A stretch of DNA of 37,187 nt from Promethearchaeota archaeon (GTDB lineage: Archaea; Asgardarchaeota; Lokiarchaeia; Sigyniarchaeales; SOKP01), in NCBI GenBank assembly GCA_016839765.1, contig JAEOTP010000051.1, positions 1 to 37,187 of the forward strand, given 5' to 3'. This document shows, piece by piece, positions 10,020 through 20,931 of this stretch. Made by a program: the position numbers and the translations under genes. Position 1 is the first letter of the stretch, and every line of letters begins with the position of its first letter. The notes under the pieces were generated by a model that was not told the origin of the DNA, ran no database searches, and worked only from the letters and a program-made list of their open reading frames with translations.

Positions 10020-10403
10020 ATGAATAGAGAGATTAAACAATTAACTGAAAAATTTTTGGAGCAATTAAGAGCCTCAAAATATTTTTCCAAAACAGAGTTT
10101 GCTATCTTGTATGGGTCTTCTCTGAGCAAATATCATTTAGAAGATAGTGATATAGATATTTGCTTATTCATTGATGCTGAGAAGAGAACACTTTCAGAAA
10201 TACGATTAGAATTATTAAAAAAGTTTAATGATGAATTTGATATTCAAATGTTTCAATTACTCCCGTTATATGTTCAGATTGAGGTATTAAAAGGTAAAAT
10301 TCTTTATGTGAGGAATGAGGAAAAATTATATGAAATCGCTAACGAGACTATTGAAGAATATGAAGAATTTTATCCATTTTATTTAGACTATATTAATCGG
10401 TGA
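10020..10403 (+). CDS. mntA: MntA-type nucleotidyltransferase antitoxin (MNT domain)
   Basis: The 127-residue protein has the minimal nucleotidyltransferase signature: GSS at 32-34 and DSDIDI with Asp44 and Asp46, matching the GSx10DxD pattern of MntA antitoxins. In the characterised type VII system, MntA transfers AMP from ATP onto a tyrosine of the HepT toxin and so silences it. Here it overlaps the HEPN gene downstream by four bases, the usual tight antitoxin-toxin arrangement. The start ATG 10020 follows an AT-rich leader. Family and pairing are firm; activity is inferred from known pairs. Confidence 0.88.
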   Translation: MNREIKQLTEKFLEQLRASKYFSKTEFAILYGSSLSKYHLEDSDIDICLFIDAEKRTLSEIRLELLKKFNDEFDIQMFQLLPLYVQIEVLKGKILYVRNEEKLYEIANETIEEYEEFYPFYLDYINR

Positions 10404-10831
10404 TAATTTTGAGAACTGATATTATTAAAACCAAACTTAAAATTATTAAAGAAAACGTTGAGTTAGTGGAGGAAAATCTTCCTGATGATGTGAATGAATT
10501 TAAAGTATTAGGTTTAGTAAAGGATGGTATTTATAAAAGAATTGAAACATCAATTCAAGAGGTTATGAGTATATGCTCAGTAATTAATACGGATTTAAAA
10601 TTAGGTATTCCCTCTAATAGAGAGGATATTATTATCTCATTAATAGAGAATAATATCTTATCAGGAAAAATGGGTGAAAAAGTTAAGGAGATGAAGGGGT
10701 TTCGAAATTTTTTAGTGCACCGTTATGGTAAGATTGATGATGGAGTTGCGTTTAAAGATATTAAAAAAGGACTCCCTGATTTCGAATTATTTAAGAAAGA
10801 GATTCTTAATTTTTTAAAAAAACATGATTAA
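10400..10831 (+). CDS. hepT: HepT-type HEPN toxin (RNase)
   Basis: The 143-residue helical protein has the HEPN signature R-x4-H-x-Y as RNFLVHRY (Arg102, His107, Tyr109). The Arg and His are the RNase active residues, and the Tyr is the site AMPylated by MntA in characterised systems. The frame opens with GTG 10400, which overlaps the mntA stop. TTG 10409, five bases after GGTGAT (10399-10404), is an equally good start and would begin MRTDIIKTK, as many homologues do. Together with mntA it forms a toxin-antitoxin operon. All key residues are present, so the toxin looks intact. Confidence 0.88.
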   Translation: MIILRTDIIKTKLKIIKENVELVEENLPDDVNEFKVLGLVKDGIYKRIETSIQEVMSICSVINTDLKLGIPSNREDIIISLIENNILSGKMGEKVKEMKGFRNFLVHRYGKIDDGVAFKDIKKGLPDFELFKKEILNFLKKHD

Positions 10832-10927
10832 ATCTATAAGATTCATGTGATTAAGTTAAAGCTCAATTTTTTAATTAAAAATTGATAACCAATTCATGAA
10901 TTTTTAAAAATTAATAAACAGATTCTT

Positions 10928-12229
10928 TTATGATATGAAGATTTTATTGAAATCCTCTTCAAGTTGATCGCGAAAATCAGGATGGGCAATATTAATCAAT
11001 GCTTTTGCACGTTGATGTATTGTTTTTCCACGTAAATTGGCAATACCATATTCAGTGACAACATAATGGACATCATTACGTGAAGTGGTTACACATGATC
11101 CTTCATTCAGTTTAGAAACTATTCGACTAATTGTTCCTTTTTTATTTGATGAGGGCAGAGCAATAATAGATTTACCTCCAGGAGATAAACTTGATGCTCG
11201 AACAAAATCGACTTGACCTCCAACGCCTGAATATTGTTGGTAACCTAGTGTATCCGCACACACCTGACCATATAAGTCCACTTGGAGGGCAGAATTAATA
11301 GAAACTAAGTTTTTAACTTTTCCAGCTATCATAACATTATTAGTGTAATCAACTGTATGCATTTCAACATTAGGGTTATTATCAACGAATTGGTAAAGTC
11401 TATTTGTACCCATTAAGAATGTGGCGATAAATTTACCAGGATGTAAATTATTATATTTATTTGTTATAACTCCTTTTTCATATAGCTCCACTACTCCATC
11501 AGAAAACATTTCGGTATGAATTCCTAAATCTTTCTTTTCGTGAAGAAACTTTAATGCAGCATCAGGAATTCCACCAATACCTAATTGAAGATTTGCCTGA
11601 TCTGGGATTAATGAAGCAATATAACGCCCGATCTTTTCTTCAACTTCCGTGATTTTTGGAAGAGGGATTTCTATTAAGGGCCTGTCAGTCTCAACAATAT
11701 AATCGATGTCTGAGATATGGATATTCGCACCATTGGTTCTAGGCATTTGCTTATTTACTTCAGCAATGACAACTTTCGAGGACTTTGCGGCTTGCACGGT
11801 ATAATCCACAGATATTCCATAGCTCATCAAACCTTGTTCGTCTGGGGGAGAAAGTTGAATAAGTGCGATATCTACAGGCAAAATGTTGTCTCTAAAAAGA
11901 CGTGGAATTTCAGAAAAATAGGTTGGAGTATAATCAGCTCTTCCCTCCCTTATTGCTTTTCGTGTTCCCGCTCCTGCAAATAAAGAATTATGGCGGAAAT
12001 GTGATTTCATTTCAGGTAAGCAATATTTACATTCTCTAAGAGGAACCATATGAACGATTTCAACATTTTGCAAGCGATCTTTTTGTCTTACAAGTTCGTC
12101 TACTAAAACAATTGGTTCCCCGGCAGCGTGTCCAAATACTACTCTATTTCCAGATTCTATATTTGAGACAGCCTCCTCTTTTGAGGTACATTTTTGAGAA
12201 TATTTTTCTTTCCAATCCATCATATACAT
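10928..12229 (-). CDS. Acetyl-CoA hydrolase/4-hydroxybutyrate CoA-transferase family protein
   Basis: The 433-residue protein belongs to the Cat1/AbfT-like family of CoA-transferases. The catalytic glutamate is Glu240 in GIHTEMFSDGVVE, and the glycine-rich CoA-binding loop is SGVGGQVDFVRA (334-345). ITEYGIA-type signature residues appear as VVTEYGIANLRGK near the C-terminus. The family moves CoA between acyl groups such as acetate, butyrate or 4-hydroxybutyrate in the cytosol. It lies 41 bp downstream of an alpha/beta hydrolase on the same strand, so a shared transcript is possible. ATG 12229 or ATG 12220 may be the start. The substrate is not resolved from sequence. Confidence 0.9.
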   Translation of the reverse strand: MYMMDWKEKYSQKCTSKEEAVSNIESGNRVVFGHAAGEPIVLVDELVRQKDRLQNVEIVHMVPLRECKYCLPEMKSHFRHNSLFAGAGTRKAIREGRADYTPTYFSEIPRLFRDNILPVDIALIQLSPPDEQGLMSYGISVDYTVQAAKSSKVVIAEVNKQMPRTNGANIHISDIDYIVETDRPLIEIPLPKITEVEEKIGRYIASLIPDQANLQLGIGGIPDAALKFLHEKKDLGIHTEMFSDGVVELYEKGVITNKYNNLHPGKFIATFLMGTNRLYQFVDNNPNVEMHTVDYTNNVMIAGKVKNLVSINSALQVDLYGQVCADTLGYQQYSGVGGQVDFVRASSLSPGGKSIIALPSSNKKGTISRIVSKLNEGSCVTTSRNDVHYVVTEYGIANLRGKTIHQRAKALINIAHPDFRDQLEEDFNKIFIS

Positions 12230-12270
12230 TACACCATATACTTATAAAAATTGTAACGCCTATTCATATA

Positions 12271-13095
12271 CTATTTTCTTTTTAAAAATTCGATTACTTT
12301 CTGGGTCCAAGGCTTAAGTTGTTGAATAATTAAACCATGGCCTGTATTCTCAAATAACATCAATTCAGCAGAAGGAATATTTTCAGCCAGAATTTTAGCA
12401 TTCTCAACTGGTAATATTTTATCTTCTGTTCCATGTAAAATTAAAGTTGGAATATTTATTTCTGATAATCTATCATAAGTTTCAAAAGTATCAACGTATG
12501 CTGATTGACCTTCAAAACCTTTGGGGGTTGGAGGATGAGCCATATAATTTTTGACTACTTTTTCAATAATATGAGGATTTCTTTTTTTATAATCCTCAGG
12601 AAATAAAGAATTAGTAAGTATTCGGGCCATTTCTTCGTATTTTCCTTCCTTCATAAGAGGCAACATCTTTGGGAATGGATTTTCTTCGGGGATAGGAGTA
12701 ACAACCCCATGAGAAGGACCGCACCAAGAAGAGGTGAGTATCAATTTAGTCACTCTATTAGGGTAATTAAGCACCATTTCTTGGGCTATACATCCTCCCA
12801 TCGAGAAGCCTAACAAATAAGTTTTGCTAATATCCAAAGCATCCATTAAAGCAATAGTGTCATCAGCCATCATTTTAGCATTATAATTTCCATCTGGGAT
12901 ATCAGTTCTCCCTGCACCTCTATTATCAAATAATATTGTTTTAAAAGATTTGGAAAATTGCTCAATACTATACGGTGGCCAACTATCTAATGAACTGCTA
13001 AGTCCACGAATTAAAATAAAAGGAATTCCTTCCCCATGAATTTTATAATAAATATTAATATCATTAACTTGAACTTTTGGCAATTTATTTTTCAC
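12271..13095 (-). CDS. Alpha/beta-hydrolase fold enzyme
   Basis: The 274-residue enzyme shows the complete catalytic triad: nucleophile Ser98 in GFSMGG, Asp225 in HGTEDKILP, and His253 in NTGHG. The oxyanion region is IRGLSSSLDSW, and FDNRGAGRTDIPDG is typical of the enol-lactonase/esterase group. It is soluble, without a signal peptide. The start appears to be GTG 13095, since no upstream ATG fits the N-terminal strand. It is the first gene of a probable operon with the CoA-transferase. The substrate could be an ester, thioester or lactone and is not known. Confidence 0.9.
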   Translation of the reverse strand: MKNKLPKVQVNDINIYYKIHGEGIPFILIRGLSSSLDSWPPYSIEQFSKSFKTILFDNRGAGRTDIPDGNYNAKMMADDTIALMDALDISKTYLLGFSMGGCIAQEMVLNYPNRVTKLILTSSWCGPSHGVVTPIPEENPFPKMLPLMKEGKYEEMARILTNSLFPEDYKKRNPHIIEKVVKNYMAHPPTPKGFEGQSAYVDTFETYDRLSEINIPTLILHGTEDKILPVENAKILAENIPSAELMLFENTGHGLIIQQLKPWTQKVIEFLKRK

Positions 13096-17979: not shown

Positions 17980-18561
17980 ATGTCTATTATAATAATTGTT
18001 TTAATTGTAGCTCTTGGAATAATTTCTCTTTGGTTCGCTTGGGGATTGATATCACCGCATATCTGGGAACAACCGGAATATGAAGTTTTAAAACGTTTGG
18101 ATAAAGTTGAAATTAGGCAATACAAACAATCCAAAATCCTAACTACTAGAGCATCGACATCAAGTAATGCTTTTTCAAAACTTGCCTCTTACATTTTTGG
18201 CAAGAATGAAGAAAAAGAGAAAATTGCTATGACTACACCAGTTTTAACAGAAACTACAGAGGATAATGATATAAGAATGGTTTTTTATCTACCTAAAAAA
18301 TACCATATTAAAGATACACCCACGCCTTACATTGAAGATATTAAAACTGAAAAACAAGATGAAAAAATTGTGGCAATCTTGAGATTCTATGGAAGAATGA
18401 CCAACAAAAAGAGGGAAAAATATATAGAAAAATTGCTAGGTATTTTGCAAGATAATAATGTTCAAACAAAAGGTAGCCTTTTCTATTTAAATTATAGTGA
18501 TCCTTTCGTTCCCCCACCCTTACGGCGCAATGAAATCGGAATTGAAATAAATGTGAATTAA
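17980..18561 (+). CDS. SOUL-family haem-binding protein with membrane anchor
   Basis: The 193-residue protein has an N-terminal membrane helix (about 2-25), followed by a complete SOUL domain: YEVLKRLDKVEIRQYKQSKI, then KIAMTTPVLTET, MVFYLPKKY and the C-terminal YSDPFVPPPLRRNEIGIEI. SOUL/HEBP proteins bind haem or related tetrapyrroles. The helix would place the domain either outside or at the inner membrane face, depending on orientation, which cannot be decided here. It is known in many archaea. The start ATG 17980 keeps the full helix. Confidence 0.9.
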   Translation: MSIIIIVLIVALGIISLWFAWGLISPHIWEQPEYEVLKRLDKVEIRQYKQSKILTTRASTSSNAFSKLASYIFGKNEEKEKIAMTTPVLTETTEDNDIRMVFYLPKKYHIKDTPTPYIEDIKTEKQDEKIVAILRFYGRMTNKKREKYIEKLLGILQDNNVQTKGSLFYLNYSDPFVPPPLRRNEIGIEINVN

Positions 18562-19745: not shown

Positions 19746-20675
19746 TTAATGCCTTTTCTTTAAGTAGACAACTGTAATTGCTAAAATTCCAATGGCAGAT
19801 ACTGATGCAATAGCTACTGTGCCTAGCACTACAGATGTCGTTTCCTCAGGAACTAATAAAGTCCAAGTTGATAAAACGCTTGTTTCAGCAGTGAGATAGC
19901 CATCGTGATTTATTGTTGGGACAGTCACCCATTCTTCATTTTCATTGTCATAATAAGCCCATTGACCTAGTCGGTTCTGATTAGTTTCTCTGATTCTTAA
20001 TCTTGCTTTTAGAAAGGTTCCATTATAAGGACATTCGGAATCGCATTTACATTCCGGATTACACTTACATTGGCAGTCACATTCGCAATTACATACAGGA
20101 TCACATTTACATTGGCAATCACATACACAAGAACATTCCGATTCACAATTGCAATCACAATCACAAGGGCATGTACATTCAGGATCACATTTGCATTCAC
20201 AATCGCACACACACTTACAATCAGGGTCGCATTTACATTCGCAATTACAATTTGCAGTAGATTTCATCGCAATACAAACCCCTTCTAAATACCGATACGT
20301 ATTTCTATTCCTCAACCTATGCAGACTTCCATTCATTAAACCGAGCTGAGCTTCCTCCCTAGTACATGTCATAGTCATTCTAAGGTCACCGTCTCCTTCG
20401 ACTTCAATAATGACGTCTTTATCTCCAATTCTTAAGGCTTCACAATTAATATCTAACTCTAAACCAATATTTGCACAAATTGTTAATCTTGTTCTTTCGC
20501 GAAAACGAAACATGGTTCGAACATTGCTTTGCAATTGTGTCTGAATTGCGTCACCCTCAACGTCGATTGTTTGATCAGGTGTTTCAACTGCGGTCACGCT
20601 AACAGAACCAATTAATGAAAGCAGAATCATTATCGTGAAAGCACTTAACAATACCTTATTAAAATTTTTTTTCAT
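19746..20675 (-). CDS. Membrane-anchored surface protein with alternating-Cys repeat array
   Basis: The 309-residue protein has a signal peptide (about 1-29), an N-terminal domain (31-139) with four cysteines, a central array (143-215) with 31 cysteines in 73 residues, a domain with GQWAYYDNENEEWVTVPTIN (about 218-275), and a C-terminal membrane helix (282-304) ending KKRH. The array consists of 14-residue units of the pattern xCxCxCxCxCxxxC, for example KCVCDCECKCDPEC (154-167), with acidic residues between cysteines. It would sit outside the cell, anchored by the C-terminal helix. High-capacity metal or metal-cluster binding is the simplest role, but that is inference. A TATA-like CTTTTTATAAG lies about 45 bp upstream on the minus strand. 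Confidence 0.85.
   Translation of the reverse strand: MKKNFNKVLLSAFTIMILLSLIGSVSVTAVETPDQTIDVEGDAIQTQLQSNVRTMFRFRERTRLTICANIGLELDINCEALRIGDKDVIIEVEGDGDLRMTMTCTREEAQLGLMNGSLHRLRNRNTYRYLEGVCIAMKSTANCNCECKCDPDCKCVCDCECKCDPECTCPCDCDCNCESECSCVCDCQCKCDPVCNCECDCQCKCNPECKCDSECPYNGTFLKARLRIRETNQNRLGQWAYYDNENEEWVTVPTINHDGYLTAETSVLSTWTLLVPEETTSVVLGTVAIASVSAIGILAITVVYLKKRH
20031..20249 (-). repeat. 42-bp (14-residue) tandem repeat encoding the Cys array
   Basis: Four full and two partial 14-residue units lie head to tail: residues 140-153, 154-167, 168-181, 182-195, 196-209 and 210-215. Each full unit has cysteines at positions 2, 4, 6, 8, 10 and 14. The DNA repeats have diverged at codon level, so the array is old or under selection, not a fresh expansion. 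Confidence 0.85.
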
Positions 20676-20931
20676 TAAATACCACCAAAATTTGAATCAA
20701 TTGATAATTAGAATTTCTTATAAAAAGGATTAAGGTATAATGTTTCCCAATAAAACAAAATTATACTAATCTGTCATATTACAAAATTAACATTTTTTAA
20801 AAAAAGAACTCTAATTTTAAGTAAAACTTTTTTTTAAAAAGAAGCCTTATTCTCTATCAAAGAATTTATAAAATAGTCCAATTCTTTCTGCTTTTATTTT
20901 CTTTTTGGATAAAACTAGCTTTATACGGTTC

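Follow-up and report, generated by a model that had tools for sequence, protein, structure and literature searches.

The genome of a Lokiarchaeota-type Asgard archaeon (G000, 3.32 Mb) encodes a surface protein in which a cysteine array is inserted into one hairpin turn of a duplicated ectodomain family member, and comparison of orthologous sequences indicates that the array cysteines are under purifying selection. Because relatives retain these cysteines while the intervening residues change, the array probably functions in metal binding or cross-linking and is not mere sequence noise. The window, by which we mean the whole stretch of DNA analyzed (37,187 nucleotides), is an entire contig of this genome. 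The named records of its relatives are Lokiarchaeota or Lokiarchaeia MAGs, in keeping with the Asgard origin proposed in the original prediction, which had been made from the DNA letters. The gene and the parts of its product are given below.

19746..20675, minus strand: array-bearing surface protein gene (309 aa), an open reading frame with intact orthologs in other assemblies
20589..20675, minus strand: putative signal peptide, about residues 1-29 (MKK, a hydrophobic run, then SVSVTA), read from the sequence, with a model helix at 3-23
20253..20588, minus strand: residues 30-141, forming the N-terminal part of the beta-rich ectodomain and including the conserved Cys78 and Cys104
20031..20249, minus strand: cysteine array, residues 143-215, 31 cysteines in 73 residues with C-x-C and C-x3-C spacing only
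19833..20030, minus strand: remainder of the ectodomain on the C-terminal side (residues 216-281, WAYYD..WVTVPT..GYLTAE..LSTWTLLVP), with a weak likeness to the corresponding C-terminal part of GAIN/ZU5-UPA domains, assigned from the model and the Foldseek hits of an array-less relative
19761..19832, minus strand: predicted C-terminal membrane-spanning helix at about residues 282-305, with KKRH after it, from the sequence and a model helix at 282-308

The original prediction had delimited the array and its cysteine count exactly to the base. Its view of the product as a secreted, membrane-anchored protein of the cell surface agrees with the predicted signal peptide and C-terminal anchor. When the positive-inside rule is applied to this topology the array should face the cell exterior, with or without cleavage of the signal peptide. 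As Cys78 and Cys104 are a conserved pair, occurring together in 53 of 55 ectodomain family members, it is suggested that disulfides form outside these cells. A frameshift or assembly artifact was rejected as the source of the array. A frameshift that would remove it was looked for and none was found, and the reading frame is uninterrupted, with intact orthologs in other assemblies that include the complete chromosome CP070831.1.

None of the libraries that were searched describes the array-protein family. No Pfam family, the CXCXC repeat (PF03128) included, matched the array protein at E values up to 1; NCBIfam gave only weak compositional matches far below cut-off; and there was no real match among PDB sequences, the profile search returning only compositional pre-SET hits. 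A description of such an array was not found in the open-licence literature. The earlier remark that no characterized protein with such an array was known is supported as far as Pfam, NCBIfam and PDB sequences go.

Within the G000 array 24 cysteine spacings are of two residues and six are of four. Self-similarity is greatest when the array is shifted by 14 residues (0.60, the other even lags giving 0.34-0.50 except lag 28 at 0.57), and Tandem Repeats Finder reports a period of 42 nt with 5.0 copies at 20042-20249. The 14-residue repeat first proposed is thus present in this genome, but it is not a fixed unit: the unit is of 14 residues in most genomes, of 10 in G014, where the array is recently expanded and runs off the contig end, and irregular in L096. 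Across 11 arrays all Cys-Cys spacings are even (281/281; 219 of two residues, 60 of four and two of six), and CC, CxxC and off-parity cysteines are absent from every one. Sites of cysteine parity that lack cysteine mostly hold P, S or N. D, E, K and Q make up most of the spacer residues, and all 11 arrays are strongly acidic, with a net charge of -4 to -16; the G000 spacers are mainly acidic (net charge -12). Array length ranges from 27 residues (L096, the shortest) to more than 131 at a nearly constant cysteine density (37-44% in 11/11 arrays), and aromatic residues are almost absent. Such a composition, rich in C-x-C, upholds the likeness to metallothioneins that had been remarked upon.

The even spacing may be functional, placing the thiols on one face of an extended chain, or it may be mere growth of a 6-nt repeat. 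The former idea had been put forward as a beta-solenoid with a line of thiols, and in its general form it holds that a beta-structured array, either a solenoid or stacked hairpins, carries on one face a thiol ladder along which metal ions or clusters are lined up. The single parity of the cysteines in all 11 arrays is as expected of such a ladder, and the P, N and S residues that regularly interrupt the units at cysteine-parity sites could be turns. However, a DNA origin of 6-nt periodicity trivially gives the same spacing, the inconstant unit length (14 or 10 residues) is unlike that of solenoid coils, and the pattern of hydrophobic core residues is absent. Moreover, AlphaFold2 (alignment of 15 sequences) gave the array a pLDDT of 35-41 and no more than scattered strands of three residues; over most of residues 216-281 the pLDDT was 67-83. 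The low array values speak against a confident solenoid and say little about a metal-bound or disulfide fold, with which they are compatible. The line of thiols is compatible with the spacing without being required by it, the solenoid itself finds no favor in the model, and we consider a thiol ladder quite unlikely.

Five orthologous arrays align without gaps, and in these 28 of 31 cysteine columns are invariant versus 12 of the 42 others. Between G000 and G159 none of the 31 cysteine columns is replaced despite eight silent changes, whereas 20 of the 42 other columns are (Fisher p = 1.6e-6). Comparison of G000 with G009, G153 and G159 gives 33-43 nucleotide differences and the loss of 0, 1 and 0 cysteines, respectively, where random change would be expected to remove about 11-14 (9-11 if only transitions are allowed). 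Silent TGT/TGC changes are frequent in the array cysteine codons. Single cysteines are lost on occasion, by change of C to S or Y in G023 and of C to S in G153; G023, the nearest relative, differs from G000 by only four nucleotide changes, two of which cost a cysteine. Non-cysteine identity is 0.56 between orthologous units versus 0.36 between units of the same array, and thus the arrays of G000's lineage have not undergone rapid homogenization.

These data weigh against a coding minisatellite that grew neutrally within a loop as functionless low-complexity sequence. The wide variation in length, the 6- and 42-nt periodicities and the absence of the array from most genomes of the genus are all as neutral growth would have them, and CxCx strings are also found in unrelated simple-repeat frames of viral contigs. 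(Among 80 loci of the matches listed in a pattern scan of such contigs there were simple-repeat frames only, for example CRCRCR, and no array of the DPxC grammar.) Neutral growth does not account for cysteine losses so far below expectation while silent changes between TGT and TGC proceed freely, nor for retention of the array in two genera whose array-bearing proteins have 51-58% protein identity. The substitution pattern largely refutes neutral expansion, which we regard as extremely improbable, and a chance hexanucleotide repeat in a lucky frame was rejected on the same counts. Variable low-complexity sequence with unconserved cysteines, an outcome that would have spoken against the original prediction, was looked for in the homologs: length varies, and the cysteines are the conserved part.

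When 228 genomes from the phylum were scanned with a strict pattern, the matches were mainly simple-repeat noise with equal counts in the control, and a stricter pattern was therefore adopted. Array-bearing copies are present in ten genomes belonging to two genera of one family, plus L096, a short contig labeled Bathyarchaeota that carries a Loki-type array gene and is possibly mis-binned or misnamed. Each of the ten array genomes also has an array-less copy, as do most genomes in the order. In G000 this paralog (C51:29278-29952) is 55-56% identical to the array protein (E 2.6e-47). Its presence, and with it the nature of the array as an insertion, had escaped the original prediction. In a tree built on the core domain with the array excised, the 11 array-bearing proteins form one clade (support 100/99), so that a single change on the tree suffices and, on these sequences, the array arose once, after gene duplication. 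An array-less relative modeled with AlphaFold has a short turn, between strands 133-138 and 141-150, at the site of the insertion.

A promoter-like element lies upstream of the gene.

20720..20751, minus strand: promoter-like element ATTGGGAAACATTATACCTTAATCCTTTTTAT (also given as GGGNANNNTTATNCCTYAATCCTTTTTAT), ending 45 bases before the ATG

The element is of 29-32 bp with a TATA-like stretch at its end, and is conserved in both array clades and before the array-less paralogs. With up to three mismatches it occurs in the 3.3-Mb G000 genome only at the array gene and its array-less paralog (control 0), and it marks family members in 16 genomes with zero control matches. As the few other sites inspected in related genomes (2-3 mismatches) mostly precede genes encoding secreted beta-helix and secreted peptidase-like proteins, the element looks like a Lokiarchaeial surface-protein promoter motif. 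A role as a metal operator was rejected, since the genes at those other sites show no metal link.

The array-less proteins have features of their own. An HFS motif near the domain C terminus is found in 42 of 44 of them and in array clade A; it has been lost in array clade B, and the G000 array protein has VLS at this position. The motif lies where GAIN/ZU5-type domains undergo self-cleavage. Foldseek comparison of an array-less core model (pLDDT 65) with GAIN, FIIND and ZU5-UPA domains gave a best E value of 2.4e-3, a TMq of 0.34 and TM-scores of 0.3-0.4. The array-less ectodomain encoded at L101 4437-5117, which has the HFS motif and a weak GAIN/ZU5-UPA likeness, is possibly an archaeal relative of self-cleaving surface domains; the ZU5/GPS superfamily has been discussed elsewhere (PMC3482391).

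Downstream of the array-less copy is the gene of a membrane winged-helix regulator, the ectodomain of which is homologous by hhalign (probability 97.5, E 7e-12). The order array-less copy, winged-helix regulator and convergent cation-efflux gene is kept in several genera. At L057 the regulator (10039-11283) is membrane-anchored and possibly forms a one-component surface sensing system, and the efflux gene (11318-12724, minus strand) encodes a fusion of a cation-efflux (CDF) protein and a winged-helix domain. A further reading, which we judge unlikely, is that the array, set in a sensor-like ectodomain, would be a surface polythiolate of adjustable length and of a previously undescribed kind that would bind metal ions in a chain, or clusters, outside the cell, its occupancy possibly being read by the membrane winged-helix regulator sharing the ectodomain. 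The neighborhood of the array gene itself is not conserved between clades and has no adjoining metal gene and no conserved redox partner gene; it was therefore dropped as a functional clue. Other features of the window are a gene at 17980-18561, close to the array gene, that encodes a SOUL heme-binding family protein (Pfam E 2e-40), a Ras-family small GTPase gene, of a kind that Asgard archaea are expected to have, at 484-1041 on the minus strand (Pfam Ras E 5e-53), and a 65-bp direct repeat (98% identical) at the contig end (37059-37187) that is perhaps an assembly end effect.

We favor the array as a cell-surface metallothionein-like polythiolate for soft metals, tunable by repeat number, a reading that in our estimate is evenly poised between right and wrong. 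In this scheme a membrane-anchored ectodomain gene would have been duplicated in Lokiarchaeia and one duplicate would have acquired an array of Cys-x dipeptides within a beta-hairpin turn. Tandem repeat slippage would lengthen or shorten the array while selection retained the cysteines, and the C-terminal anchor would keep it outside the cell. Neighboring C-x-C pairs would act as chelating ligands for soft metals, namely Zn, Cd, Cu(I), Hg, As(III) or Fe, with a capacity that scales with repeat number. In Oikopleura OdiMT2 four divalent ions are bound by 12 cysteines, and a larger number of repeats gives a greater capacity (PMC8283569). On this analogy, 31 cysteines could hold about ten divalent ions. 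We infer the reduced state of the array, its metal binding and any biological role from sequence.

The C-x-C motifs, the acidic spacers and the variable length at constant cysteine density fit such a chelator better than fixed disulfides. The cysteine totals of the array proteins (35, 33, 37, 19, 28, 23, 34 and 27) have no fixed parity, and an odd total excludes a fixed all-cysteine intramolecular pairing in the proteins concerned. Likewise, the tolerance of single cysteine losses is easier to accommodate with a flexible chelator than with paired disulfides. The CDF gene near the array-less locus in several genera lends weak support. Against metal binding stand the lack of a metal gene beside the array gene, the possibility that extracellular thiols may oxidize, the disulfides outside the cell suggested by the conserved Cys78/Cys104 pair, the absence from the arrays of the CC and CxxC motifs common in many metallothioneins, and the genes with similar promoter elements, which give no sign of a metal regulon.

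Were the cysteines oxidized, they would form dense intra- and intermolecular disulfides, making the array a stalk or cross-linker that stiffens the protein or links surface proteins. The insect high-cysteine chorion and Balbiani ring proteins are Cys-x-Cys structural proteins of this sort. The extracellular location, the disulfides implied by the conserved Cys78/Cys104 pair, a promoter element common to other surface proteins and the conservation of the array cysteines are all consistent with cross-linking. However, the odd totals in many orthologs preclude complete intramolecular pairing, C-x-C neighbors are strained as disulfides, and the free gain and loss of units together with the single cysteine losses suit pairing poorly. 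In addition, the known ecology of the group makes an anoxic and often sulfidic habitat probable. We think cross-linking, the chief alternative to metal binding, possible, if somewhat doubtful. The same cysteine density and location, together with the lack of an obvious fold, would also suit a thiol-redox or exchange surface, a cysteine reservoir that reacts with sulfide, polysulfide, heme or electrophiles. Given that the CxxC redox motif occurs in no array (n=11) and no conserved redox partner gene adjoins the array gene, we find this very unlikely.

Should the array bind metals, archaea of the lineage closest to eukaryotes would bear on their exterior a metallothionein-like device whose capacity is set by repeat copy number. 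If it is cross-linked instead, it would suggest that anoxic archaea have a disulfide-based surface layer. In either case it is a clean example of a new cysteine-rich module that arose by one insertion in a duplicated surface gene, for which the array-less paralog is the natural control.

The array resembles metallothioneins in its very high cysteine content, its C-x-C motifs and its few aromatic residues. It differs in matching no metallothionein family model and in being part of a 309-residue protein with a signal peptide, an ectodomain and an anchor, whereas metallothioneins are small, usually intracellular and consist of the cysteine domain alone. The multi-modular metallothioneins of Oikopleura (OdiMT2, PMC8283569) and mollusks (PMC9781358) also have tandem C-x-C units, few aromatics and a repeat number that varies between lineages or populations. 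These proteins contain 28-31% cysteine, with CC or CCC and irregular longer gaps beside C-x-C, and no anchor or host domain is described for them (PMC8283569, PMC9781358). In contrast, the present array has about 42% cysteine and even spacing only, and is placed within a loop that belongs to a membrane-anchored ectodomain; metal binding was shown for those proteins and is proposed here from sequence. The Zn3Cys9 pre-SET/CXC proteins are likewise rich in C-x-C, although the weak profile matches to histone methyltransferase pre-SET regions (E 0.048) are compositional only, the spacing is different and those proteins are nuclear. With GAIN and ZU5-UPA/FIIND domains (BAI3 4dlo, CD97 9mqr, NLRP1 7crw and ankyrin) the array-less core shares a weak Foldseek likeness and the HFS motif, but the TM-scores are low, the model is of moderate confidence, there is no sequence match and the G000 array protein lacks HFS.

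Secreted Asgard cysteine-rich proteins also combine a signal peptide, C-x-C runs and acidic spacers. L065, L066 and L275 are short members of family f15 in which D/R-rich repeats accompany CDCDCDC or CECECEC runs, and L287, of another family, has repeated CxC and CxxC motifs (QECQCDCPDECPNCPDNCQNCPEC). All four differ from the array protein in being short, with repeats that are D/R-rich or contain CxxC and without this ectodomain, and are probably of independent origin. The array-less Lokiarchaeial family (for example the G000 paralog and L101) is homologous to the array protein in signal peptide, ectodomain and anchor, with 55% identity, and its promoter element is homologous too. It differs in having C-N/D-G-T/S or a similar sequence at the turn where the array is inserted, and in retaining HFS, which was lost from array clade B.
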